Positions 36,446-50,448 of a DNA stretch of 64,000 nucleotides are shown here, one piece after another. Origin of the DNA: an uncultured Mollicutes bacterium (GTDB lineage Bacteria > Bacillota_I > Bacilli_A > Acholeplasmatales > Anaeroplasmataceae); assembly GCA_947174785.1 (NCBI GenBank), contig CAMWKG010000005.1, positions 1-64,000 of the forward strand. The letters run 5' to 3'. Numbering within the stretch: the stretch's first letter is position 1; each line of letters starts with the position of its first letter. The notes under the pieces are model-generated. The model had not been told where the DNA came from. It did not search any database and worked only from the letters and a program-made list of their open reading frames with translations. Made by a program: the position numbers and the translations under genes.

Positions 36446-36536
36446 GGAGTAGTACTCAAGAGGCTCAAGAGGCTTCCCTGCTAAGGAAGTAGACCGGGTA
36501 ACTGGTGCAAGGGTTCGAATCCCTTCTGCTCCGCCA
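36446..36536 (+). tRNA. tRNA-Ser(GCT)
   Basis: A 91-nt type II tRNA. The acceptor stem GGAGTAG pairs with CTGCTCC, followed by a discriminator G and encoded CCA (36534-36536). The anticodon stem CTTCC/GGAAG encloses loop CTGCTAA with anticodon GCT at 36480-36482. The T loop is TTCGAAT and the long variable arm fits serine identity. Its 3' side marks the left edge of the accessory region. Confidence 0.96.
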
Positions 36537-36549
36537 TCTTAAGAGTACA

Positions 36550-36580
36550 CAGATAATACGTCGGTATTATCTGTTTTTTT
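36550..36580 (+). terminator. Terminator after tRNA-Ser
   Basis: CAGATAATAC (36550-36559) and GTATTATCTG (36564-36573) form a 10-bp stem with a 4-nt loop, followed by seven Ts. Direct repeat A begins within this T run. Confidence 0.9.
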
Positions 36581-36632
36581 ATACCTAATTTCACTCAGAT
36601 TTACCAAATCAAACCGAATTACGCAGAATTAC
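36577..36632 (+). repeat. Direct repeat A (left flank of the Thg1/helicase/RNase III cassette)
   Basis: About 56 bp beginning TTTTATACCTAATTTCAC and containing CGAATTACGCAGAATTA. It matches 40963-41018 with about six mismatches, in the same orientation. It may be an attachment-site or integration footprint. Confidence 0.8.
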
Positions 36633-36780
36633 ACAAAAATATAATTCTAATAAAACTGGAGAAAAAGTGCATTTTATTGATATTTATGAAATTTTTTTTA
36701 TCAACTTATATCACTGAGTGAAACTTCAAACCACTCCTTGAGTCAAGTAGGGGGTTCGAGCTTTCACTTGGTAAAAGAAA

Positions 36781-36812
36781 AGAGGTCGTTTAAGACCTCT
36801 TAATTTTTTTCT
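36781..36812. terminator. Terminator of the first Thg1-like gene
   Basis: AGAGGTC (36781-36787) pairs with GACCTCT (36794-36800). There is TTTTCTTTT on the minus-strand side and a T run on the plus side, so it can act in both directions. It immediately follows the minus-strand gene. Confidence 0.8.
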
Positions 36813-36818
36813 TATAGA

Positions 36819-37535
36819 TTAATTTAAAAGTTTTTTAAGTTTTAATGGTTGTGCTTGAAATTCAAAAGATTCTAGTTTTTCTTTAGAATTATAAATTAAT
36901 CCATATCGATATTCAGCAGGAAATTCGTTATATTTTATACCTTTCTTTTCTAATTCTTTTAATACTTTATTTGAAGTATGCAATTTATAATCTATGTTAA
37001 ATTTTCCTTTTAATTGCATTATGAATTTATCAATTGCAAAAGCTTGTCTAGAAATAAAATATTCATAAATAGATGATGTTTGAATTATTCTAGCATCAAA
37101 GACATTATTTTTTGTTGTATTCAATCTATTGTTCTGTGCATTTTTAAAAAATAGAATAGACAACTCACCAGCATATAGAGATAGTATTTTTTCAATTCTA
37201 GCTTCTTCAATTGTACTATTTTTGGGACCTTTTATCAGAATTGATATTTCATCACTAAATGAATAAGCAAATATAATATTCTTTTTAGAAGAACAAAATG
37301 AGTAAAAAGTCTCTTTCATTGTTTTAAAGAATTCCTCATTTATTGGCTCTTTATTTATTTTATAATCCTTGGTCATATCTTTTCCATCGAATCGAACAAT
37401 ATAATATACATCTTTTTCAAGTTTTAAATTAAATTTTTCCTCCTCATATTTAAATGGCTTATACATTTCTAAGGCATAACCATAGCTATATTTTTCTTTT
37501 ATTTTTGATTTTTGCTTTGTAGTGATTTTGGTCAT
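36819..37535 (-). CDS. Thg1-like 3'-5' nucleotidyltransferase (cassette copy)
   Basis: A 238-residue protein related to tRNA-His guanylyltransferase Thg1. It has the two metal-binding carboxylate motifs of the palm domain, VRFDGKDMTK (D50) and SFSDEISIL (D95-E96), and the FDARI motif. Where eukaryotic Thg1 has a WRQ...HINNLYN helix this protein has SRQAFAIDKFI, so the canonical HINNLYN is missing, as in Thg1-like proteins (TLPs) that repair truncated tRNA 5' ends. It is divergent from the helicase-RNase III pair. A paralogue with the same key residue numbers lies at 49699-50448. Function in this setting is inferred. Confidence 0.75.
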   Translation of the reverse strand: MTKITTKQKSKIKEKYSYGYALEMYKPFKYEEEKFNLKLEKDVYYIVRFDGKDMTKDYKINKEPINEEFFKTMKETFYSFCSSKKNIIFAYSFSDEISILIKGPKNSTIEEARIEKILSLYAGELSILFFKNAQNNRLNTTKNNVFDARIIQTSSIYEYFISRQAFAIDKFIMQLKGKFNIDYKLHTSNKVLKELEKKGIKYNEFPAEYRYGLIYNSKEKLESFEFQAQPLKLKKLLN

Positions 37536-37710
37536 ATTTAATCTCCCTTATTATAATGAAACTAAATTAAGTATATATCATTTTTTGATAAATGAAAAGA
37601 ACTTTTATTGACAAAGTTTTACAAGATAAAATTATTTAGTTGTTTAATGCTGTCATTTTTTTAATAATTATGTTAAAATAATATAAATAACTTAAAGAGA
37701 TGATATATTA

Positions 37711-40449
37711 ATGAAAGATTTTTTAGTTGATTTTAGAAAAGATAAAATTTTTATATACACTAATAATGGTAGCTGGAAGGATTCAACAAATGACATACGT
37801 TATTTTGATGATGTTGGCAATTGTTATAGAGTTACATTCAAGTCAGGGAAGAGATATCATTTTTCTTATTCAAATGTAAGAATATTGAGAAATGCTAGAC
37901 AGGAAAATGTAGATCCTTTTTTACTTGGGAAATATATTGAAGTTAAAGAGGCTTATCTCTATTCTTCAGAAAACAATTATTATATTTTTGAAAAAAATTA
38001 TGGAATAGAAAAAATATCAAAAGATAGAATTGAAGAATTTAATAAATATGCAATATCTCAACAATCTTTATATAATTATTTTTTATCTCTTGCTAGATTT
38101 TATGATAAACATACTAAAAATGTGAGTCAAAATGATAAAGATAGTCAAAATGACTTTCTTGGAAGTCAATATGAAAAAGTGAAGGAGTTATGGAATTTAG
38201 ATAATGTATTAAATGATGTTTTAAATAAAAAAGTTAAAACGTATAATTGCAATAAAATTATTTATCCATTTTCTCATAATTTAAGTCAGATGAAAGCAAT
38301 TTCTAATGGTATGTCAAAGAATATATCTGTTATTCAAGGCCCACCTGGCACAGGTAAAACGCAAACAATTTTAAATTTAATTTCCAATATTTTAATTCAA
38401 GATAAAACAGTGGCAATTATTTCAAATAATAATGGCGCGGTTTATAATGTTTACGAAAAAATGGAAGAGGCAGGCTATGGATTTTTATGTGCTAACTTAG
38501 GCAGTTTAAAAAATAGAAAAGAATTTTTTTCTAAAGAACATAATATTGAAAAATCAAATTTAAATAGAATATCTGGAAATTTAGCAGAGTTGATCCAAAA
38601 AGAAAAGAAAGTATTTGAATTTGAATCCACTCTGAGTTCTTTATATAACAAAAAAGAAGAATTAGAATTTGAGTACAAGAAGTATGCAAATAAAAATGAT
38701 GTTTCGACTATCAATACTAAAAAAATTCTATCTTCAAAAGAAATGATGAATTTATCTGCAATTTTAGAATCTAAAGGGAAAGAAAGATTAGGTTTTTTTG
38801 CTCGTTTAAAATATAAACTCAAATATGGAATTTCTTCAGAATACACTAAGAATAACATTCCATATTTGACAGAATTATTAAAAAATACATCTGTAAAGAA
38901 AAGGATAGATGAATTAAGTTGTGATATTAAAAAAATGGAGAACTATATTGTAGAGTATAAGAAAGATGATGTGTCTAATCAAATAATAAATATTTCAAAG
39001 TATTTTTTAAATAAATATCTTTTTGAAAAAATGGAACAAGTTGCTGATATTGAATTTGATGCTGAAAATTTTAAATCATATTTTGATATATTTATTCAAA
39101 GATATCCTGTCATTCTTTCTTCAACATATAGTCTACCAACGACAGTTCCTAAAAGATTTGTATTTGACTATATTATTATTGATGAAGCAAGTCAAAGTAC
39201 TATAACTACTGTTTTGCCATCTCTAGCAAAAGGAACAAACCTTATAGTTATTGGAGATGATAAACAGTTACCTCCTGTTATTTCTGAGGAAATACTTGAT
39301 TTTGAAAAAAAGATATTCTTATCAAATAAAGTAAAAGAAGTTATGAGGGATAATGGGAAAAGTTTTTTATGTTTTATTCAAACATATTTTGATAAAAAAG
39401 TTCCAGTTACTTTACTTAAAGAACACTATAGATGTCCAAAACAAATTATCGGGTTCAGCAATACAAGAATTTATTCGAATCAGTTAGAAATTAAAAAGAA
39501 TGAAGATGGAGATAAGCATCTTGAAATTATTAAGACTCTTCCAGGGAACCACGCTAGAAAAAATGATTTAGGTGAAGGTGGGCAATATAACCAACGAGAA
39601 ATTGATGAGATTGTTGAATTACTTAAGGATTTACCTACAGATAAAACTATAGGGATTGTAACTCCATATAGAAGACAAGCAGAATTGCTAAAAGAGACTT
39701 TGCCTGAGAATATTGAAGTTGGTACAATTCATACTTTCCAAGGAAGAGAACAACAAATCATTATTTTTTCAACAGTTGCTAATAGTGCTGAAGATTATAT
39801 AAAAGATGATGAAATCATTAAATCTTTTATTAATAACGAACAATTAATCAATGTAGCTATTACAAGAGCAAAAGAAAAATTCATTCTTGTAACAAGTGAT
39901 AAAATAGCTCATTCAAACTATGGAATATTAGCAGACCTTGTAAAATATATTTGCTATCAAACCGATAACGACATAGTTGAAGGAAAGGTAAGTTCGGTTT
40001 TTGATATTCTTTATGATGAATATGCAGAAACAAGAAAAAGTATTTTAAAAACAAACGAAATTGCAACAGAAGAGATAATGGAAAATCTAATCAAAAAGAT
40101 TCTTGAACAGCCAGAATACTCTTCAATATCCTATTCAATGCATGTTAGTTTAAAGACTATAATAGAACTCGATAAAGCCAATTATAGTATTGAAGAATAT
40201 CAATACCTTAATCATCCTTGGACACATTTAGATTTTGTGTTGTTCAATAAGTATGATAAGAAACCGCTTCTTGCCATAGAAGTCGATGGGGTTTCTTATC
40301 ATGAACAAAATAGTAAACAAGCAATGCATGATAGAATTAAGGATAAATGTTTAAATGATTCTATACTTCCTTTACTTCGACTAAAAACAAATGGATCTAA
40401 TGAAAAACATATTATTACAGACAAATTGAACATAATATTGAAAATATAA
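37711..40449 (+). CDS. SF1 (Upf1-like, AAA_11/AAA_12) helicase with C-terminal DUF2726-like nuclease domain
   Basis: A 912-residue protein. Walker A is GPPGTGKTQT (about residues 210-219), Walker B IIIDEASQ (D491-E492), motif III GDDKQLPPV, then LKEHYRCP, GIVTPYRRQ, TFQGREQ and VAITRAKEKF, the full SF1B set. A long charged helical insert lies at about residues 270-400. The C-terminal 100 residues (HPWTHLDFVLFN, then LLAIEVDGVSYH with D859) look like the DUF2726/PD-(D/E)XK-type endonuclease fold. Helicase-nuclease fusions of this kind are frequent in defence islands. It is followed after 21 bp by the RNase III-like gene. Confidence 0.8.
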   Translation: MKDFLVDFRKDKIFIYTNNGSWKDSTNDIRYFDDVGNCYRVTFKSGKRYHFSYSNVRILRNARQENVDPFLLGKYIEVKEAYLYSSENNYYIFEKNYGIEKISKDRIEEFNKYAISQQSLYNYFLSLARFYDKHTKNVSQNDKDSQNDFLGSQYEKVKELWNLDNVLNDVLNKKVKTYNCNKIIYPFSHNLSQMKAISNGMSKNISVIQGPPGTGKTQTILNLISNILIQDKTVAIISNNNGAVYNVYEKMEEAGYGFLCANLGSLKNRKEFFSKEHNIEKSNLNRISGNLAELIQKEKKVFEFESTLSSLYNKKEELEFEYKKYANKNDVSTINTKKILSSKEMMNLSAILESKGKERLGFFARLKYKLKYGISSEYTKNNIPYLTELLKNTSVKKRIDELSCDIKKMENYIVEYKKDDVSNQIINISKYFLNKYLFEKMEQVADIEFDAENFKSYFDIFIQRYPVILSSTYSLPTTVPKRFVFDYIIIDEASQSTITTVLPSLAKGTNLIVIGDDKQLPPVISEEILDFEKKIFLSNKVKEVMRDNGKSFLCFIQTYFDKKVPVTLLKEHYRCPKQIIGFSNTRIYSNQLEIKKNEDGDKHLEIIKTLPGNHARKNDLGEGGQYNQREIDEIVELLKDLPTDKTIGIVTPYRRQAELLKETLPENIEVGTIHTFQGREQQIIIFSTVANSAEDYIKDDEIIKSFINNEQLINVAITRAKEKFILVTSDKIAHSNYGILADLVKYICYQTDNDIVEGKVSSVFDILYDEYAETRKSILKTNEIATEEIMENLIKKILEQPEYSSISYSMHVSLKTIIELDKANYSIEEYQYLNHPWTHLDFVLFNKYDKKPLLAIEVDGVSYHEQNSKQAMHDRIKDKCLNDSILPLLRLKTNGSNEKHIITDKLNIILKI

Positions 40450-40470
40450 AAAGGAATGGAAGAATGATTC

Positions 40471-40950
40471 ATGAATCAAGATTTATTTGCAAAATATTTG
40501 GAACAAAGAGATAATGTATATATAAAGAGAGCGTTAACCGATACTTCATATAAGAATTATTTTTCACGTTTTGAAAAGAAAGAATTTGTTGGTGAAACTA
40601 ATAAAGAACTTGCAACTTTAGGGGATGCCATATTAAAATCTATTTTGTGCATACTATTTTTAGATAAGGAAACACCATTATCAAACTATGTTCAAAACTT
40701 TTTAACAGATCAGGTGCTAGTAGAAGTTATTGCTAAAGAATATAAATTAATTGACATTATAAATTTTGATAGAGAGGATGATAAGATTCCTAAGGATTAT
40801 AAATATAGTGAAAATAAAGAAACGCATAAATTTATAGCTACTGCTGTAGAGGCCCTTATTGGAGCAATATATTTTAGTACTAATTCACTAGTTGAATTAC
40901 AAGAAATAATTAAAAAATGGATTAGCATTATTAATGTGGAAAAGATATAA
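40471..40950 (+). CDS. Stand-alone RNase III-domain protein with a degenerate active site
   Basis: A 159-residue protein consisting of one RNase III domain and no double-stranded RNA-binding domain. ALTDTSY at the N terminus, the signature region NKELATLGDAIL (44-55) and ATAVEALIGAIYF (123-135) align with the family. The family's NERLEFLGD becomes NKELATLGD, so two of three acidic residues there are changed (K45, A48), while D52 is kept. The later Asp is T124, while E127 is kept. It shares the small size with Mini-III. It may be an inactive RNA-binding dimer or a cleaving enzyme with altered geometry. It probably forms an operon with the helicase. Confidence 0.7.
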   Translation: MNQDLFAKYLEQRDNVYIKRALTDTSYKNYFSRFEKKEFVGETNKELATLGDAILKSILCILFLDKETPLSNYVQNFLTDQVLVEVIAKEYKLIDIINFDREDDKIPKDYKYSENKETHKFIATAVEALIGAIYFSTNSLVELQEIIKKWISIINVEKI

Positions 40951-40962
40951 ATTTCTCTTCAA

Positions 40963-41018
40963 TTTTATACCTAATTTCACTTGGATTTACCAAATTAAAT
41001 CGAATTACGCAGAATTAT
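40963..41018 (+). repeat. Direct repeat B (right flank of the cassette)
   Basis: TTTTATACCTAATTTCAC followed by GATTTACCAAAT and CGAATTACGCAGAATTA, same orientation as repeat A at 36577-36632. The two copies delimit about 4.4 kb. Confidence 0.8.
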
Positions 41019-41173
41019 GTAAATATAAATCTAAAAAAAGATTAAGAAAAAATGTGGTAAAATGTCAAAAAAAATGATATACTATTTGTATCGTCGCAAA
41101 TTAAGATTTTAATTAAAGGATTGTAAAGTTTTATATTTTCTTATGAAAAAATTTATAAAAGGGAGATATGGTT

Positions 41174-43576
41174 ATGAAGAATTCAAAAAAAATATTGCAA
41201 GATATATTTGATAAAAAACTAAATTATGAAAATGAGAAAATAGATTATAAAGAGATTTTTAATTTTACATCAGAAAGAGAAAAATTAGAAATTATCAAGG
41301 ATATTGTTAGTTTTGCTAATACTAAAGGTGGTTATATTGTATACGGTGTAACTAATAATTTTGATTGGGTTGGCTTAGATGAAAGATCTTCTAAAATAAA
41401 TGATATACAAATATTGGATTATGCCAAAAAATACATTAGCAAATTATTTGAAATAAAATGTGGTGAATATGAAATAAACGACAACATCTTTTATTTGTTA
41501 TCTGTAGAGCAGAATAAAGGCTCATTAATAAGTTTTGTAAATGATGGTTTTTATTTGAAAAAGAAAATAAACGGACAAGAAGAAAGAAAAATAGTATTTA
41601 GAAAAAATGATCAATATGGTAGAATAGGCAGCAGTTCACGTCCCATAAACAATGATTTTCTTTTTATTAAAAGAAGAAATAATAATTATGGGATTGTGTC
41701 AAATTTGTCTAATATTGAGAGGCCATATGTAAGATATATTGAGAGACCAAATGATGAAGCTAGATTGACAGAAAAAATGAATATGCAAAATATACGTAAC
41801 ATTCAAATCAATGGCTTAGGTGGAATTGGAAAAACATCCTTTGTACGAGACTTTTGTGATAAAATATTAGATAATCGAGTAGTATTAAATGATAAAATTG
41901 ATTTTATTGTTTGGATAACTGGTAAGATGACTTTGTTTTTACCATCAGGAGAAACAAAAATAATTCGCGATGTTGAAATATCTTATGAGGAGATTCTGCA
42001 AAAAATTGCAGAAGTGTTTGAAATTTCAGACTATGATTATTCAGAATTGGAAAATAAAATTATTGAAATTATGTCAATTTATGAAACCCTTATCGTTTTT
42101 GATAATATGGAAACTATTAATGACAAAAAGATTATTGACTTTTTAATAAAGGTTCCCCACAAATCTCGCTTGATTTTTACAACTAGAGAAAATATGGTGG
42201 ATTTACAATATGCAAGAATTGATTTAGACGGATTTAGGAAAGAGCAATTTGTTGAATATTTTTCAATGCAAATTAAATACTTTGATTCAAAAAATATTTT
42301 TGATTTAAAAATGATTGATCCTTATATTAATACATTTTATTCTTTAGTGCAAGGATCGCCTATTATGACGAATATGATTGCCTATAAAATAGGTCAAGGA
42401 AGTGACATTAATTATTTAATAAGGCAATTAAGTAAAAAATGCAATGATAGTAGTCCTTATGATCATGCAATGGAATTTTGCTTTGAAGAAGTATTCAATA
42501 CGTTGGATACCTTAGAAAAAAGAATACTTTTTATATTGTCTATTTCGGACTCAAACGAAGATACTTTTTCTATACCTGATTTAATCCATTGTACTGATTC
42601 AGATGAGAATGTAATCGCAGAAAAAATGCAAAAATTATATGGTTTATCTTTTTGTAACATGAAAAACGGGCAGTATTCAAGTCCTAATTTAGTGAAATTA
42701 TTTGCAAATAAAAAACTAAGTGGTGATACTAATGTTGACATTAAAGAATTAAGAAATAAATATTATGAATTAGCAAAAGAAAAAGAGAGACTAGGAGTGA
42801 TGTCCAATACTTTTTATTCTAAAGCAAAAGCCTATACTTATGAAGAAAAAAGTGCAGCGTTGCAAATAAAAGCTATAATTGATGATTTTTTTATAACTAA
42901 TGATTTAGATGTAGCTTACAAAAAAATTGAAAAGTTAGAAAAAGATAATCCAACTTTTGCATACATATTTTTTAGACGTGCCTTATTTGAAAAGGATATC
43001 ACTAGTCCTGCAGAAATTGTCAAAGAATATTTTTTGAAGGCTATTGAGTTAGACTCTAGTAATGATCATTATTGGACAGAATATGCATTTTATATTGAGA
43101 AAATAAACAAAGCGGAAGCTATTAAACTTTTTGAAAATGCCATTGCAATAAATGATGGTAATAGAAGTGCACATCATGGTCTAGCAGTATGTTTGACTAA
43201 ATTATATAATCAAAAAGAAGAATATTTTCTTGAAAAGGATAAGATTATAGAAGAGTTTAGTAAAGGATATTCTGAAATTAATGATTTTTATTGGACAAAA
43301 CATAATATCAATAATTTTCATGCACATGCTACATATTTAAAAAATATTAAATGTTTAGAAGAAGCTTTAAATGTGTGCCATTTGGGACTAGCTAAATATC
43401 CTAATGCAAAACAATTGTTATCTTTAGAAGGTAACATTAAATTAGCTATTGATCCCAATTATGTCAATCCTTTAAGAATAGAGGATATGAAGATGGGAAT
43501 TTTTAAAAATGCTGATTCTGAAATTATAAAAAGCATAATTAAAACATCAGGTTATCGAAAGAAAATAAAATATTAA
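41174..43576 (+). CDS. AlbA_2 (Schlafen-like)-STAND NTPase-TPR protein
   Basis: An 800-residue protein. The N-terminal AlbA_2/Schlafen-like domain (about 1-130: DYKEIFNFTSEREKLEIIKD, ANTKGGYIVYGVTNN) precedes an NB-ARC/NACHT-like STAND ATPase with Walker A NGLGGIGKTSF (K220), LIVFDNMET as Walker B and SRLIFTTRE as sensor. A C-terminal helical repeat region follows (about 550-750: KAIELDSSNDHYWTEYAFYI, AIAINDGNRSAHHGLAVCL). Effector-STAND-TPR is the architecture of bacterial NLR-like antiphage proteins (Avs type). GGGAG supports ATG 41174 over 41168. It lies just after repeat B; whether it belongs to the cassette is unclear. Confidence 0.75.
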   Translation: MKNSKKILQDIFDKKLNYENEKIDYKEIFNFTSEREKLEIIKDIVSFANTKGGYIVYGVTNNFDWVGLDERSSKINDIQILDYAKKYISKLFEIKCGEYEINDNIFYLLSVEQNKGSLISFVNDGFYLKKKINGQEERKIVFRKNDQYGRIGSSSRPINNDFLFIKRRNNNYGIVSNLSNIERPYVRYIERPNDEARLTEKMNMQNIRNIQINGLGGIGKTSFVRDFCDKILDNRVVLNDKIDFIVWITGKMTLFLPSGETKIIRDVEISYEEILQKIAEVFEISDYDYSELENKIIEIMSIYETLIVFDNMETINDKKIIDFLIKVPHKSRLIFTTRENMVDLQYARIDLDGFRKEQFVEYFSMQIKYFDSKNIFDLKMIDPYINTFYSLVQGSPIMTNMIAYKIGQGSDINYLIRQLSKKCNDSSPYDHAMEFCFEEVFNTLDTLEKRILFILSISDSNEDTFSIPDLIHCTDSDENVIAEKMQKLYGLSFCNMKNGQYSSPNLVKLFANKKLSGDTNVDIKELRNKYYELAKEKERLGVMSNTFYSKAKAYTYEEKSAALQIKAIIDDFFITNDLDVAYKKIEKLEKDNPTFAYIFFRRALFEKDITSPAEIVKEYFLKAIELDSSNDHYWTEYAFYIEKINKAEAIKLFENAIAINDGNRSAHHGLAVCLTKLYNQKEEYFLEKDKIIEEFSKGYSEINDFYWTKHNINNFHAHATYLKNIKCLEEALNVCHLGLAKYPNAKQLLSLEGNIKLAIDPNYVNPLRIEDMKMGIFKNADSEIIKSIIKTSGYRKKIKY

Positions 43577-43578
43577 AC

Positions 43579-44172
43579 TTGAGTAAAATAGAAGTAAAAC
43601 TGGCAAGATAAGATGAAGTAATAAGATATTCTGAAACACTAAATGAAAGATATATCTAGCCCTAGAAGAGAGAAGAAACTGTTCAACTTTGAAGCTTTTA
43701 AAGAAGCTTGGGTTAATGCATGCGTTCATAATAAATGGACAGATGGACTCCCACCTGCTGTTTATTGGTTTGCAGCACTTACAGCGGCATTCCTAAAGAA
43801 ATGACAAAGGAGGAATTCTTGACAGGAAAAATCAAACCAGTAAACGAAGAATTAATGAAGATTTTTTTACAGTGCAGTATTGTGGAGCATTTAGGACATG
43901 GCGTACCCATCATTGTAAGAGAATATGATGAGAAGGCTTATGAATTTTCTGAAAGCTTTATAACAGTTACCATTCCTTTCGATAGAACTGGCTTTGGAAG
44001 TCAAAATGTCGCTCAAAAAGACGAACAAATAAAAGCATTAATTCGAGCAAATAAATGAATTACTCGAAAGGAAATTGCAGCTAATTTGGGTGTTTCTGTT
44101 AAAACGATAGAAAGATTCTTAAAAGATATATTCATTATGTTGGATCATCAAAATCTGGTCACTGGGAAATAG
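43579..44172 (+). pseudogene. Decayed COG2865-type ATP-binding regulator
   Basis: Three frames together give one recognisable protein. There is an N-terminal piece (EVKLAR, stop, DEVIRYSETLNERYI, stop), then SPRREKKLFNFEAFKEAWVN ending after VYWFA. After a frameshift with loss of about 15 bases comes GIPKEMTKEEFLTGKIKPVN through VTIPF (the HATPase_c_4-like part). Finally, past a TGA at 44056, a winged-helix end begins TRKEIAANLGVSVKTIERFL. The intact family has this region as one frame, so the gene has at least three inactivating lesions. Confidence 0.75.
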
Positions 44173-44500
44173 AGGAGTAGAATCTAATTTTATATAAAAT
44201 ATGGGATGAATAATGTTTATTTTTATCCCATTTTTTAATGCTTCTAATTTATTGTGCATATTTTTACATAGTTTTTAAATGCATTTTTGCATATTTTTCG
44301 GCATGTTTCTATATTAAAATTGCATATTTTATATATATGTAGCAGAGTTCTTTTATTTGTGATATGCTTTTAAAACAACTAAGCTATTGACTGTGAAATG
44401 AAAACTTTTGAATTTTTTATAAAACTTTTCATTATTACTGAAAACTTTTGTTGACTTTTATAAAACTTTTCAGTATGATTATATTGGCAGGTGATTTCTA
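44173..44500 (+). promoter_or_regulatory. Intergenic region with terminator, tandem 33/34-bp operators and promoter
   Basis: A hairpin GGGAT...ATCCC with a T run (about 44202-44237) ends the pseudogene region. Two near-identical units, each of the form TGAAAACTTTTG...TATAAAACTTTTCA, lie at 44399-44431 and 44439-44472. The second overlaps TTGACT (44451-44456), which with TATGAT (44474-44479; 17 bp) forms the promoter of the downstream ATPase. Each unit contains a pair of AAAACTTTT boxes, a likely repressor target. The rest is A/T-rich with repeated TGCATATTTT. Confidence 0.65.
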
Positions 44501-45682
44501 ATGATAAAACGAGAACATTATATCAAGGAAGTAAGAGAGTTTTATGATTCAAATTTAATTAAAATTATAACTGGTATTCGTAGAAGTGGTAAATCTGTTA
44601 TTTTGGGACAAATTAAGGCAGAGATTCAGCAAAAGAGTGATAATGTGATTTATTTGAATTTTGAGAATAAATCTACACAGTTAAGTATACCAAATGCAAA
44701 TTCTATTATTGAATATGTGCGCCAAGAAAGAAAAGAAGGGCCTTGCTATGTATTTTTGGATGAATTACAAGTGATAGATGATTGGGCTGAGGCTTGTAAG
44801 ACACTTCGATTAGAAAATTGTTCTTTATTTATAACTGGATCAAATTCAAAATTGTTATCAAGCGAATTTGCCAAGCAATTAAGTGGAAGATTTGTTGCAT
44901 TCAGAGTTCGACCTTTTGTTTATAAAGAAATTATAGAGTATTCAAAAGAGTTGGGTATTGAGACGACTATAATGGACTATTTAATATATGGTGGGTTTCC
45001 CAACAGATTTGAATTTGGAACAAAAGAGGCACAGATTAAGTATTTAAATGATTTAGATGAAACAATTGTAATTAATGATTTAATCACAAGATACAAAATT
45101 AAGAAAACAGAATTATTTAAGCGATTGGTAAACTTTGTTTTGAAATCCAACAGTAGAATTTTCTCTGCTAAGTCTATTTATGATTATGTGAATAAGAATA
45201 TTATGAATTGCTCAATTAACACAATTATGAAATATTTAGATCATTTAAAAGAAGCATATGTGATTGATACAATCAATCAATATTCAACGAAAGTAAAAAG
45301 AGAGTTAGAGTTTTATGTGAAAATTTATAATGCAGACGTTGCATTAAACTCTATACGTTGTTTAGATAATCGATTTGATTTAACACATAATCTAGAAAAT
45401 ATCATTTATAATGAGCTTCTTTATATGGGTTACAAGGTTAATGTCTTCGATAATAATGGCAAAGAAATCGACTTCATAGCTAGTAAAGGAAATATGAAAT
45501 ATTTGGTGCAGGTGGCATATAGTGTTGCTGAAGAAAAAGCATATAATAGAGAATTTGAGGCATTCCATAATTTAGATAATTCAATGCAAAAAATTCTCAT
45601 AACAAATGATGAAATTGATTATTCTACAAGTATAGTAAGACATATCAAGTTAAAAGACTTTCTTTTAATGAATAGTTTATAA
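44501..45682 (+). CDS. AAA_14/DUF4143-family ATPase
   Basis: A 393-residue protein. The P-loop TGIRRSGKSVIL (K31), Walker B CYVFLDELQVI and a conserved arginine-containing sensor (GSNSKLLSSEFAKQLSGR) form an AAA_14 domain. A DUF4143 domain follows (about 190-390), ending with a possible nuclease-like core (GYKVNVFDNNGKEIDFIA). These ATPases are widespread, variably inherited and of unknown function; the DUF4143 core resembles archaeal HJC-like PD-(D/E)XK folds. The start is a clean ATG after AGGTGA. Transcription is from the promoter within the tandem operator repeats. Confidence 0.85.
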   Translation: MIKREHYIKEVREFYDSNLIKIITGIRRSGKSVILGQIKAEIQQKSDNVIYLNFENKSTQLSIPNANSIIEYVRQERKEGPCYVFLDELQVIDDWAEACKTLRLENCSLFITGSNSKLLSSEFAKQLSGRFVAFRVRPFVYKEIIEYSKELGIETTIMDYLIYGGFPNRFEFGTKEAQIKYLNDLDETIVINDLITRYKIKKTELFKRLVNFVLKSNSRIFSAKSIYDYVNKNIMNCSINTIMKYLDHLKEAYVIDTINQYSTKVKRELEFYVKIYNADVALNSIRCLDNRFDLTHNLENIIYNELLYMGYKVNVFDNNGKEIDFIASKGNMKYLVQVAYSVAEEKAYNREFEAFHNLDNSMQKILITNDEIDYSTSIVRHIKLKDFLLMNSL

Positions 45683-45705
45683 TATTAATATATTCCTTTT
45701 TTGAA

Positions 45706-45738
45706 AATCATCGGTTGTTTGATCGGTGATTTTTTTAT
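45706..45738 (+). terminator. Terminator after the AAA_14 ATPase
   Basis: AATCATCGG...CGGTGATT stem around a short loop, followed by seven Ts. Confidence 0.75.
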
Positions 45739-45819
45739 TCATTAAAGTATCTTTTCCTTACTTAATAACAATAAGTGGTCAATTCAAAATTAATACACAT
45801 TTTATCAGCAGGCTAGTAG

Positions 45820-45993
45820 AATAGTAGGTTGTTCCTCTATGGAGGCTTAAAAGGATTTCTATATGGTGGTGTATCTGAAGATGCCAAAAGTCTAATTTAT
45901 TACGTGTATGACTCCTCACAGGAAGTCTATATAAAGAAGCAAGCACTCATCAATTTTGATGGAATGCAGGACAATGTGATTGTCTTATTTTAG
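45820..45993 (+). pseudogene. Prophage-derived ORF fragment without a start codon
   Basis: A frame open from after the stop at 45817 to the TAG at 45991. It reads NSRLFLYGGLKGFLYGGVSE and ends QDNVIVLF. It has no plausible start and no upstream coding sequence. The short FLYGG repeat and its position before lysis genes suggest the tail of a phage structural or baseplate gene. The remainder of 45683-46004 shows no other signal besides the terminator. Confidence 0.45.
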
Positions 45994-46004
45994 GAGGTTA
46001 GAAA

Positions 46005-46328
46005 ATGGAAGCAACTATCGTATTATCTATTATCAGCGTTCTTGGAACAGTATCATCCATTGTCTTTGCATTCCTAGCTTATAAGAGAAATGCAAAGACA
46101 GACAACAAGCAGGAAGGCAAGAACGAAGGAGTCTTAATTAGTGATGTAGGATATATCAAATCTTCTATTGACCGTATTGAAAAGAATATGGACAAGCTGG
46201 AAGATAGATATAATCAATTATCAATGCAGCTGTCTAAGACAGAAGAAAGTGTGGCACAAGCTCACAAACGTATTACAGAACATATCAACGATAAAACAAA
46301 GCATAAAGGAGGCAACAATCGTGAATGA
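46005..46328 (+). CDS. Phage-type membrane/coiled-coil protein (XhlA-like)
   Basis: A 107-residue protein with one N-terminal membrane segment (IVLSIISVLGTVSSIVFAFLAY) and a coiled coil (SSIDRIEKNMDKLEDRYNQL). The pattern resembles haemolysin XhlA-type proteins of prophage lysis modules, although such proteins usually have the coiled coil first. AGGAGG precedes it. It overlaps the holin gene by 8 bp. Confidence 0.6.
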   Translation: MEATIVLSIISVLGTVSSIVFAFLAYKRNAKTDNKQEGKNEGVLISDVGYIKSSIDRIEKNMDKLEDRYNQLSMQLSKTEESVAQAHKRITEHINDKTKHKGGNNRE

Positions 46329-46698
46329 TATTTTATTAAACGTGCTTAGTGTGGTATTTACGGTTTTCATTATTCCGTTAATCACTATGCTTGGAACAAA
46401 GGTAATTTCTTGGATAAATTCCAAGATTAAAAATGAGAAGATGGCAGGTCTTTTGACACAGGCCACAGAGGCGGTCATAAACGCCGTACGTTCGGTTTTT
46501 CAGACCTATGTTGAACAGTTAAAGGCTGATGGAACATTCGGCGAAGAAAAGCAAAGAAACGCCCTTTTAAAAGCTAAGGACTTAGCTTTAAGCCAAATGA
46601 CAGATGAGGTCAAAACATTTATTCAAATCAATTATGGTGACCTACAGCAATGGCTTACCACCTCAATAGAAGCAACAATAAATAAACTTAAAAACTAG
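46321..46698 (+). CDS. Phage holin, LLH-type
   Basis: A 125-residue protein: one membrane segment (LNVLSVVFTVFIIPLITMLG) followed by a basic and alanine-rich helical part (LLTQATEAVINAVRSVFQ, LKAKDLALSQM), matching the LLH family of phage holins. GTG 46321 has AAAGGAGG upstream. Holins open the membrane for endolysin; no endolysin gene follows, so this is a leftover lysis module. Confidence 0.75.
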   Translation: MNDILLNVLSVVFTVFIIPLITMLGTKVISWINSKIKNEKMAGLLTQATEAVINAVRSVFQTYVEQLKADGTFGEEKQRNALLKAKDLALSQMTDEVKTFIQINYGDLQQWLTTSIEATINKLKN

Positions 46699-46700
46699 TA

Positions 46701-46746
46701 AAAACTCCACTTGTTAGAAATGATCTAATGAGTGGAGTTTTTTTTG
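46701..46746 (+). terminator. Terminator after the holin gene
   Basis: AAAACTCCACT (46701-46711) and AGTGGAGTTTT (46731-46741), an 11-bp stem with a T run. Confidence 0.85.
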
Positions 46747-47065
46747 TTTTTTGCCTCGATTTTATATTTAAAATGGTATCCTTTTACTAGGGCAGAGGGG
46801 ATTTGAACTGCCCATTTTCAGTCGATTTTCATTATAATTGGTATTACTTCAGTACGCCTAACCTTTTTTGAAGGTATTATTTCAGTACGCTTAAGACATT
46901 AGGCAAGAGGGGATTTTGATTTACCTTCTTGTATTTTTTTGATACTCTAAATTAGTGCTATTTACTTGTAAATTTAATGTCATTTTTATTCCAAAAAAAT
47001 TGTAATCCTTGACATTACAACGAGATTAGATTTATAATAATGCTAAAGTTAGGGTAGGTGATATT
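46747..47065. repeat. Non-coding stretch with short tandem-like repeats and the Rrf2 promoter
   Basis: A 22-bp unit GGTATTACTTCAGTACGCCT(AA) occurs at 46840-46861 and, with two mismatches, at 46873-46894. A second element, GGCAGAGGGGATTTGAA (46791-46807), recurs as a variant at 46902-46919. The second resembles the complement of a tRNA 3' end and could be a former attachment site. No ORF was found. The end of the region holds the Rrf2 promoter and operator (separate entry). Confidence 0.5.
47000..47038 (+). promoter_or_regulatory. rrf2 promoter with operator TTGTAAT-N7-ATTACAA
   Basis: TTGACA (47009-47014), 18 bp, TATAAT (47033-47038). The perfect inverted repeat TTGTAAT (47000-47006) and ATTACAA (47014-47020) straddles the -35. 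The same repeat occurs twice upstream of the cupin gene, so it is very likely the Rrf2 binding site. Confidence 0.8.
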
Positions 47066-48029: not shown

Positions 48030-48797
48030 ATGAATCAAGAGGAAAGAAGAATAAAGCTAATAGAAGATTTATTATTTGAACAAAACCAAAAAGTGAATAT
48101 TCCAAAAGATAAATCATCCCAAGAATTGCTTCTAAGAGGCTTAATGAATATTCGCATGCCTAGAAAGTTTAGCGAAATATTTATAAATACTCAAAACACC
48201 TATTTACAAGAACGCTTACAAGAAAAGGGAATTACGGATATAAACTGCTTAAATCCTATAAAGGATGATTTATATCTGTGGAGAGGCGATATCACAACTT
48301 TAAAATGTGATGCTATTGTGAATGCGGCAAACTCCCAAATGCTAGGATGTTTCATTCCAAATCATAGATGTATTGATAATGCTATACATACCTATGCTGG
48401 TATAGAATTAAGGGAAGAATGCTTCCAAATGATGAAGAAGCTAGGAAGAGAAGCTGAGGTAGGAGAAGCCTTTTTGACAAAGGCTTATAACTTACCTTCA
48501 AGGTATGTAATTCATACTGTAGGTCCTTTCGTATCATCATACCTAACAGAAGAGGACAAAAAGAATTTACAAAAATGCTATTTATCCTGTTTAAAGTTGG
48601 CAGAAGAGCATAGCTTAGATAGTATAGCATTTTGCTGCATCTCTACAGGAGAATTTCATTTTCCAAATGATGCTGCAGGTCAAATTGCAGTAGAAACGGT
48701 AAAGCAATACAAAGAAAAAACACAAAGCAAAATAAAAGTGATTTTTAATGTGTTTAAGGAGCTAGACTATGACATTTATAAAAGACTACTCAGCTGA
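48030..48797 (+). CDS. Zinc-dependent macrodomain protein (ADP-ribosyl hydrolase, SirTM-associated type)
   Basis: A 255-residue protein. The N-terminal helical extension (MNQEERRIKLIEDLLFEQNQ) precedes a macrodomain with LWRGDITTLKCDAIVNAANS, then GCFIPNHRCIDNAIHTYAG (Cys/His residues that bind Zn in this class), and later HTVGP and CISTGEFHFP for the phosphate loop. Members linked to class M sirtuins remove ADP-ribose from the sirtuin's target. It overlaps the sirtuin gene by 29 bp. Confidence 0.85.
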   Translation: MNQEERRIKLIEDLLFEQNQKVNIPKDKSSQELLLRGLMNIRMPRKFSEIFINTQNTYLQERLQEKGITDINCLNPIKDDLYLWRGDITTLKCDAIVNAANSQMLGCFIPNHRCIDNAIHTYAGIELREECFQMMKKLGREAEVGEAFLTKAYNLPSRYVIHTVGPFVSSYLTEEDKKNLQKCYLSCLKLAEEHSLDSIAFCCISTGEFHFPNDAAGQIAVETVKQYKEKTQSKIKVIFNVFKELDYDIYKRLLS

Positions 48798-49620
48798 GCT
48801 TGAAAAATTAAAAAAATCTATAGAGGAAGCAGAAGCCATCCTCATAGGTGCAGGGGCAGGACTTTCCACTTCTGCAGGCTTTACCTATTCAGGAAAGCGA
48901 TTTGAGGAGAACTTTAAGGATTTTATCGATAAGTACCACTTTACAGATATGTATAGTGGAGGATTTTATCCCTTTCCCTCTTTAGAGGAATTGTGGGCAT
49001 ATTGGTCTAGATATATTTATATTAATCGATATCAAGACCCTTTATATCCTGTTTATGAAGACTTATATCAGCTTATAAAGGATAAAAATTATTTTGTTAT
49101 TACTACGAATGTGGATCATTGTTTCCAAAAGGCAGGCTTTTCAAAAGAGCGTTTGTTTTATACACAAGGAGATTATGGCCTGTTCCAGTGTTCTACTCCA
49201 TGTCATAATAAAACCTATGATAATGAAGCTATAATAAAAGAAATGGTAGAACAACAATCCTTTTTAAGAATCCCTACTCGTCTTATTCCAAAGTGTCCAA
49301 TTTGTGGAAAGCCTATGACAACAAATTTACGCAAAGATGATGCATTTGTTCAGGATGATGGTTGGTATAAAGCACAGGAAAGATATCAATCCTTTTTAAA
49401 ACAAAATAAAAATAAAAAAGTATTGTTTTTGGAATTAGGTGTTGGAGGCAATACCCCTATAATCATCAAATATCCATTCTGGAAATATACTATGGATAAT
49501 CCAAAGGCAACCTATGCTTGTCTTAACCTAAATGAGGCAATAGCTCCCGATATGCTAAAAAGTCAATCTATTTGTATTAATGAAGATATAAAAAATGTAT
49601 TATCTCAATTAAAAAAGTAG
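48769..49620 (+). CDS. Class M sirtuin (SirTM), protein ADP-ribosyltransferase type
   Basis: A 283-residue sirtuin. The NAD loop GAGAGLSTSAGFTYSG is followed by TTNVDHCFQKAGF and FYTQGDYGLFQC, where canonical sirtuins have the catalytic His but this has Gln, a mark of the SirTM class. Zinc cysteines are in CSTPCH and CPICG, and the last part has ELGVGGNTP. In streptococci and staphylococci SirTM ADP-ribosylates lipoylated GcvH-L and works with a macrodomain partner in an oxidative-stress operon. No GcvH-L or LplA2 gene is in this window. The ATG lies inside the macrodomain gene after AAGGAG. Confidence 0.88.
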   Translation: MTFIKDYSAELEKLKKSIEEAEAILIGAGAGLSTSAGFTYSGKRFEENFKDFIDKYHFTDMYSGGFYPFPSLEELWAYWSRYIYINRYQDPLYPVYEDLYQLIKDKNYFVITTNVDHCFQKAGFSKERLFYTQGDYGLFQCSTPCHNKTYDNEAIIKEMVEQQSFLRIPTRLIPKCPICGKPMTTNLRKDDAFVQDDGWYKAQERYQSFLKQNKNKKVLFLELGVGGNTPIIIKYPFWKYTMDNPKATYACLNLNEAIAPDMLKSQSICINEDIKNVLSQLKK

Positions 49621-49698: not shown

Positions 49699-50448
49699 TT
49701 AGTGACTATTTACTTTTTCAAGCTGATTTGTGATTAAGCTTTCTAAAATAGGAAGATTATTAACGAATTCAAAGGATGGAATTTTCTTTTTTGGAGAATA
49801 AATCAAGCCGAAGCGATATTCTGGTGGCTGTTTATAATAAAAGACATTTTTCTTTTCTAATTCACTAATAATTTCAAAGGATTGAATGATATTTCTATCA
49901 ATATTATATTTATCGCGTAAAAGCTGTAAAAAATTACAGATTGCATAAGCTTGTCTTGAACAAAAATATTTGACAATTTTATCTTTTTCCACCTTCAATA
50001 TTCTTGCATCAAATAAGCTATCTCGCTTTAATTCTAGATTATTTTCTTTTGCTGTTTTATAAAACAAAACAGATAACTCACTAGCGTAAAGAGATAAAAT
50101 CTTTTCCACTCTTGCAGTAATCGAATTTTTACTTGAGGTTCCTTTAATGAGGATGGAGATTTCATCACTAAATGAATAAGCAAATATAATGTTGGGTTTC
50201 GTAGAACAAAAAGCTTTAAATATTGCCTTCATCGTTTTAAAAAAGATAGTATTGATAGAATGGTTTTCTTTTCTATAATCCTTTGTCATTCCTTTTCCAT
50301 CAAAACGTACAATATAATAGGACTCTTCTTCGAGTAATAAATTGAATTCTTTTTCTAGTTTTTTATAGGTAGCATAACGCTTATCAGCAGAAGGATATGT
50401 ATAATTGCTTATTTTTGGATACTTAATTTTTGACCTGAGCTTATTCAT
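49699..50448 (-). CDS. Thg1-like 3'-5' nucleotidyltransferase (second copy)
   Basis: A 249-residue paralogue of the cassette gene at 36819-37535. It has VRFDGKGMTK (D50), SFSDEISIL (D95-E96), LFDARI, SRQAYAI and PPEYRFGLIY, with the same residue numbers for the catalytic carboxylates. Long stretches are nearly identical to the other copy (NIIFAYSFSDEISILIKG). It also lacks the HINNLYN motif of eukaryotic Thg1. It stands alone between a bidirectional terminator and the XRE operon. It may be the chromosomal form from which the cassette copy derived, or the reverse. Confidence 0.75.
   Translation of the reverse strand: MNKLRSKIKYPKISNYTYPSADKRYATYKKLEKEFNLLLEEESYYIVRFDGKGMTKDYRKENHSINTIFFKTMKAIFKAFCSTKPNIIFAYSFSDEISILIKGTSSKNSITARVEKILSLYASELSVLFYKTAKENNLELKRDSLFDARILKVEKDKIVKYFCSRQAYAICNFLQLLRDKYNIDRNIIQSFEIISELEKKNVFYYKQPPEYRFGLIYSPKKKIPSFEFVNNLPILESLITNQLEKVNSH

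Follow-up and report, generated by a model that had tools for sequence, protein, structure and literature searches.

The 64,000-nucleotide stretch analyzed here (the window; contig CAMWKG010000005.1 of assembly GCA_947174785.1, from an uncultured Mollicutes bacterium of the family Anaeroplasmataceae) carries a Thg1-like gene, a helicase-nuclease gene, and an RNase III-like gene between two direct repeats downstream of tRNA-Ser(GCU). This 4.4-kb repeat-flanked stretch is part of an island from a genus-specific family with a shared left end and an inverted right end, and the island itself spans 10,360 bp from the CCA end of the tRNA. We regard it as likely that these islands form an integrated, probably phage-derived element family at tRNA CCA ends in which the three genes are independent cargo. 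The initial annotation had taken the genes for one mobile system acting on RNA ends; its repeats, tRNA-Ser adjacency and three gene identities were confirmed by ARAGORN, blastn, and Pfam matches, and its reading of mobility, tRNA association, and defence context was supported, but the analysis corrects a tempting and unsupported three-gene system. The features that carry the argument are as follows.

36446..36536, + strand: tRNA-Ser(GCU) (ARAGORN, Rfam); its 3′ CCA (36534-36536) is the insertion point by junction comparison
36537..46896: island, 10,360 bp, inserted at the tRNA-Ser(GCU) CCA end and bounded by 24-bp inverted repeats
36537..36560, + strand: left terminal inverted repeat TCTTAAGAGTACACAGATAATACG, whose inner half forms the hairpin terminator after the tRNA
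36577..36631, + strand: DR1, the left arm of the island
36819..37535, - strand: Thg1-like protein (3′-5′ nucleotidyl polymerase family), 238 amino acids
37711..40449, + strand: superfamily 1 (SF1) Upf1/IGHMBP2-type helicase with a C-terminal DUF2726 nuclease-fold domain, 912 amino acids
40471..40950, + strand: orphan RNase III-like protein, 159 amino acids, without a double-stranded RNA-binding domain (dsRBD) and with Mini-III-type active-site positions (LGDA/TAVEA)
40963..41017, + strand: DR2, a second left-arm copy without terminal repeat, starting 13 bp past the RNase III-like gene
46788..46896, + strand: right end of the island; its last 24 bp (46873-46896) form the right terminal inverted repeat, and the CA core follows at 46897-46898

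DR1 and DR2 are 92.7% identical over 55 bp in direct orientation (blastn: E = 1e-17) and are the sole copies in the 1.84-Mb genome (next-best match: E = 0.07), so that a dispersed genomic repeat was rejected. They had been read as the ends of a mobile 4.4-kb cassette; they are instead left arms of tRNA-inserted islands, and the island in the window runs on to 46896. The left and the inverted right terminal repeat agree at 19 of 24 positions, the best match among all 24-mers on both strands of the window, and the halves of the island have GC contents of 25.6% and 28.6%, vs. 32.3% outside. When searched across the family, the hairpin and repeat were restricted to the genus, where they occur in seven genomes. 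The left end directly follows tRNA-Ser(GCU) in the window genome and in sister genomes (ARAGORN), and in other species it follows tRNA-Leu(GAG), tRNA-Ser(GGA), tRNA-Leu(CAA), or tRNA-Glu(CUC), which places the left arm behind five different tRNA genes within the genus. The right-end sequence (46788-46896 here) also sits at island borders in sister loci. The contigs of several sisters end 150-300 bp beyond the left end, and such breaks would fit strain-variable downstream sequence.

Comparison of occupied and unoccupied sites within the genus places the insertion at the tRNA 3′ end. At tRNA-Ser, the sequence of genome G046 (GCCA|TTTAGACCC) continues as the flank of genome G051 beyond its right end (...CTTAAGATA|TTTAGACTC), the letters TTTAGAC after the junction being common to G046 (after ...GCCA) and to the right flank of G051 (after ...CTTAAGATA). 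At tRNA-Leu(CAA), the right flank of G051 (...AAGACAAAAATTGCTTGATATTTCGCG) continues the sequence that stands after CCA in genome G044 (ACCATAAATTGCTTGATATTTCGCG), and the junction reads ...ACCATAAATTGCTTG in G044 vs. ...AAGACAAAAATTGCTTG in G051. These alignments indicate insertion at the CA of CCA, with CA or CAT as the apparent shared core; no direct duplication of the tRNA 3′ segment was found at the far end, where the right junction shares only CA(T). After recA and tRNA-Ser, genome G045 continues with the Rrf2, macrodomain, and sirtuin genes found past 47066 in the window, and all of 36577-46900 is missing there. Several genome comparisons thereby show an exact insertion at the 3′ end of a tRNA gene and sister genomes without the insert, G045 keeping a left-end-like scar.

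The reading of the three genes as one system is not supported. Their co-occurrence was rejected after searches of the family, order, and class and reading of the neighborhoods. With only two helicase candidates scored per genome in the class sample of 395 genomes, the helicase counts given here are minimum values. Orthologues spanning the full helicase (32-39% identity) are present in at least 18 other genomes of the class; the RNase III-like family is present in 8 of 55 family genomes, 9 of 160 order genomes, and 10 of the 395 class genomes sampled. The helicase (at least 19 genomes) and the RNase III-like family (10 genomes) overlap in a single genome, that of the window, vs. 0.48 expected (P = 0.39). 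Thg1, present in 7 of the 55 family genomes, coincides with the RNase III-like family in three of them vs. 1.0 expected (P = 0.055, uncorrected), the two genes not being neighbors outside the window. No second genome with any two of the three genes side by side appeared in the neighborhoods read, and the three were not found co-occurring elsewhere, an outcome that the initial annotation had itself named as speaking against one mobile three-gene system. The helicase, RNase III-like, and Thg1-like genes are independent, interchangeable cargo and not one three-part machine.

The remainder of the island holds further cargo and phage remnants.

41168..43576, + strand: Schlafen AlbA_2 + NB-ARC + TPR (STAND-type) protein, 802 amino acids
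43612..44097, + strand: AlbA_2/HATPase_c_4 gene remnant, C-terminal part only, 47% identical to L105:10603-11910
44501..45682, + strand: AAA_14 + DUF4143 ATPase, 97% identical over 308 amino acids to a G044 protein
45752..46695, + strand: prophage late-gene remnants (C-terminus of a tail-region protein, a 107-amino-acid protein, and an LLH-like holin)

RecA identity between the window species and G044 is 93-94%, below the 97% of the AAA_14/DUF4143 protein, and this difference suggests that the gene was recently transferred. Among sister islands that share these ends, the tRNA-Leu island of G051 carries AbiTii, DUF6680, and AlbA_2, the island on contig 3 of G051 carries type I HsdR, AbiD, and Mrr, and the tRNA-Ser island of G051 carries a YhcG-type nuclease; the island of G044 has a Schlafen-group-3 helicase with the RNase III-like gene, and that of G045 has type III restriction genes with PDC-S05 and the RNase III-like gene. 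The cargo of these islands is accordingly mostly defence. Occupied and unoccupied sites, together with known defence families in same-ended islands, are what bears out the mobility and defence context proposed initially, and by association with the sister islands the window cargo is most likely defensive too.

The late-gene remnants are 47-94% identical to tail-region, 107-amino-acid, and holin-like proteins on contig 59 of G046, the holin family match being just under the cut-off (E = 4e-4). Terminase and portal genes are also found on that contig, which has the same right end; the left end lies off the contig. Such similarity makes a phage origin of the islands likely, not proven. Two elements abut in G044, where a right end is followed directly by a left end complete with hairpin and arm, and DR2 may likewise be the left arm of an older, underlying island whose junction was lost. 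Tyrosine and serine recombinases are numerous in the genus; none adjoins these ends, and the copies seen have no integrase of their own as a tRNA-site integrative element would. Under the preferred reading, the 10,360-bp element (36537-46896) is integrated at the tRNA-Ser(GCU) CCA end as a member of a probably phage-derived family, its seen copies devoid of a recombinase gene, that inserts at the CA of CCA in several tRNA genes. The shared left end consists of terminal repeat, tRNA-terminator hairpin, and left arm, with the right end inverted; repeated insertion would stack islands and leave DR2 as the older island's left arm; and the recombinase would act in trans or have been lost with the phage part. 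The island is real and mobile and has a probable defensive role, but it is of an ordinary kind, namely, a probably phage-derived tRNA island with interchangeable cargo. Two features stand out as unusual: the recurrence of the same ends, with a minimal CA core, behind five tRNA genes, and the existence of an orphan RNase III-like family.

Several observations weigh against this reading. The tRNA-Ser site of G045 lacks the island but retains the left terminal repeat and hairpin as a 45-bp left-end-like sequence; this is a scar or a native terminator, and the site is not a pristine empty one. Similar hairpins also follow island-free tRNA genes, e.g., tRNA-Glu in genomes without an island there, so that the two G051 comparisons are the main basis for the exact left boundary. 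Stacking is an inference, since DR2 comes without the terminal repeat. A complete prophage bearing both ends was not encountered: the prophage contig of G046 breaks off before a left end, and on it some 6 kb of non-phage genes lie between the holin and the right end. Finally, no tyrosine or large serine recombinase was found inside the island or beside the sister ends in a genus-wide search with PF00589 and PF07508 in which the neighborhoods were read.

We weighed four other explanations, two of which concern the genes. One RNA-end defence system, in which the helicase-nuclease and the RNase III-like protein would cleave tRNA or other RNA and Thg1 would repair it, is highly improbable: Thg1 lies on the opposite strand, helicase orthologues stand alone in several phyla, the helicase/RNase III-like overlap in the class sample is not above chance, and the adjacency of any two genes recurs in no second genome, although all three families act on nucleic acid and the genes are adjacent in a tRNA-linked island between repeat copies. 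A smaller unit, a two-gene operon in which the helicase would expose or load duplex RNA for a Mini-III-like nuclease, would explain why the two genes share a strand with a gap of 21 bp, and the RNase III-like gene lies closely behind a Fic gene in two relatives too. The partner upstream of the RNase III-like gene, however, differs almost everywhere (Fic, PDC-S05 with type III restriction, a Schlafen-type helicase, membrane proteins, or nothing evident), and orthologous helicases occur without an RNase III-like neighbor, which makes such an operon quite unlikely.

The other two concern the ends. The 55-bp repeats do enclose exactly three genes, and the first half of the island is more AT-rich than the second, as would be expected if the repeats were the ends of a mobile 4.4-kb unit or left-arm sites for cassette exchange by homologous recombination; but in sisters this sequence occurs as a single left arm next to a tRNA, paired with a different right end, DR2 carries no terminal repeat, and no genome was found with just the 4.4-kb unit missing. 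We consider this explanation unlikely. It is doubtful that the ends belong to a DDE-type transposon or a phage satellite favoring tRNA CCA ends, with the phage genes as captured cargo, since no transposase is common to the islands, where only IS3, IS200/IS605-like, and ISL3 insertions occur, inside or beside them. Transposon-like features are nevertheless present in the 24-bp terminal inverted repeats and the 2-3 bp junction, and the use of several tRNA genes is unusual for a single phage integrase, the usual pattern being one integrase, one tRNA. Within the preferred reading of a phage-derived element family, one trans-acting recombinase that recognizes the CCA end common to many tRNA genes instead of a particular tRNA sequence, docks one element type with its defence cargo after many tRNA genes, and stacks it repeatedly at one site is a tentative possibility. 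If true, the docking rule would be unlike that of one integrase for one tRNA, and the search for the enzyme would become concrete.

The Thg1-like protein of the island matches PF04446 (E = 4e-17, above the cut-off) and has the catalytic domain with two metal-binding motifs (RFDG and SDEIS) that is typical of Thg1. It resembles bacterial and phage Thg1-like proteins in these respects, with PDB matches to 4kgk and 5axk and relatives in large phages, but is only ~25-28% identical to the phage forms. From its family, it would be expected to repair tRNA 5′ ends; a literature search found no paper on Thg1-like proteins in defence. The window has a second Thg1-like gene (49699-50448, - strand), 52% identical to the first and located beside macrodomain/sirtuin-like genes (48030-49620). 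This gene sits in the chromosomal backbone outside the island, and the Thg1-macrodomain-sirtuin cluster is kept at the recA locus of G045, whose Thg1 is 74% identical.

The helicase has AAA_11/AAA_12 domains plus DUF2726 (E = 1e-10), and its motifs look intact (GPPGTGKT, DEAS, GDDKQLPPV, HTFQGRE, and ITRAKEKF); a nuclease-type D...EVDG..H pattern is present as well. The defence helicase MkoC of Mokosh carries a phospholipase-D domain. The window helicase resembles Mokosh proteins in its SF1 core, with MkoA (E = 6e-54) and MkoC (E = 2e-51) as the best PADLOC matches, but these cover mostly the helicase core, the C-terminal domain is, by its DUF2726 match, of another nuclease type, and neither of the arrangements that define Mokosh (MkoA with the MkoB kinase, or MkoC fused to a phospholipase-D nuclease) is present in the window, which has no kinase partner and no phospholipase-D domain. 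Against Hhe and ProA, two other Upf1-like defence helicases, the protein scores far under the NCBIfam cut-offs. Relatives of the helicase core and of the nuclease part occur on E. coli and Parabacteroides plasmids. Around the helicase orthologues lie further variable or defence-type genes (TIR, N-6 methylase), and no RNase III-like or Thg1 match accompanies the helicase at any of the class loci read. According to PMC3710099, DUF2726 is a DNase with the restriction-endonuclease fold that occurs fused to Abi domains. Judged by its families, the helicase-nuclease most likely acts alone, unwinding and cutting invading nucleic acid.

The RNase III-like protein matches PF14622 (E = 4e-11). In seven aligned members compared with T. 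maritima RNase III (1o0w), Glu is replaced by Ala or Gly and Asp by Thr, while Asp (LGDA) and Glu (VEA) are kept; the same pattern (ELAFLGDA and ATALEA) is seen in the Mini-III structure 2gsl. The full set of EDDE carboxylates and the dsRBD of class I RNase III (rnc) are absent, and the score against TIGR02191 is 35 bits vs. a cut-off of 166. The protein is thus a dsRBD-less RNase III domain with a reduced carboxylate pair, like Mini-III (2gsl, FN1578; 4oun, B. subtilis), with which it shares the single domain, the Ala/Thr in place of Glu/Asp, and the retained Asp (LGDA) and Glu (xEA). It differs from Mini-III in its similarity (E = 0.78 to Mini-III 2gsl vs. 2.5e-6 to RNase III), its RNase III-like ALTxxSY N-terminus, and a sporadic distribution that is too patchy (9 of the 160 order genomes) for orthology to the housekeeping enzyme. 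The predicted structure is poor (mean pLDDT 55.8), and its best fold match, Mini-III, is weak and carries little weight. Activity of the Mini-III type is possible, although the protein is no Mini-III orthologue; it would then most likely cut double-stranded RNA as that enzyme does.

No member of the RNase III-like family was found in phages or plasmids, and a scan of genome contigs gave mostly low-identity matches resembling housekeeping RNase III, as judged largely without individual inspection. In L019 and L020 the gene lies against the right end, and in the window it lies against DR2. A role as the element's own mobility gene was not supported, other islands with the same right end lacking it. 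In two sister genomes, a gene with a Fic domain immediately precedes the RNase III-like gene (L022:17906-19358 and L025:9855-11310), and the copy in G051 is broken and was read as two pieces. A related orphan RNase III-like protein (L299:14944-15423, with LATLGDS) directly follows a helix-turn-helix gene in a large-serine-recombinase element of G045, which supports the view of the RNase III-like gene as mobile cargo.

The islands resemble known tRNA-integrated defence islands and prophage cargo in their tRNA 3′ insertion, AT-richness, variation among species, defence cargo, and phage remnants. They differ in the recombinase gene missing from the copies seen, in a core of only about CA or CAT in place of a tRNA 3′ fragment directly duplicated at the far end, and in the presence of one end type at five tRNA genes. 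A literature search found no paper describing this island type, and the end motifs, used as exact patterns, had no match in IMG/VR contigs. The ends are a usable marker pointing to defence cargo in a poorly studied group of Bacilli, and they lead to genes absent from defence catalogues, i.e., the orphan RNase III-like family, DUF6680, and the helicase-DUF2726 protein.

Some minor observations concern the ends and other mobile elements of the genus. The right end (46788-46812) and sister right ends contain an inverted tRNA 3′-end-like stretch (reverse complement GTTCAAATCCCCTCTGCC) that is kept in several islands. Remnants of IS200/IS605-like ends (CCACCAGCTAGGCTGGTGGATAATTATT) lie between tRNA terminators and left arms in L069 (1574-1603), L072 (224-253), and L108 (575-595), with a TnpA-like gene near the remnant in L072. 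Two islands behind tRNA-Ser(GGA) are very short, contain hardly any cargo or none, and resemble internally deleted elements (L201:14040-14146 and L274:15759-17574). A second mobile family in the genus is characterized by large serine recombinases with 50-57% mutual identity and varied cargo (L297:7252-9237, L298:4973-6928, and L299:7471-9420).

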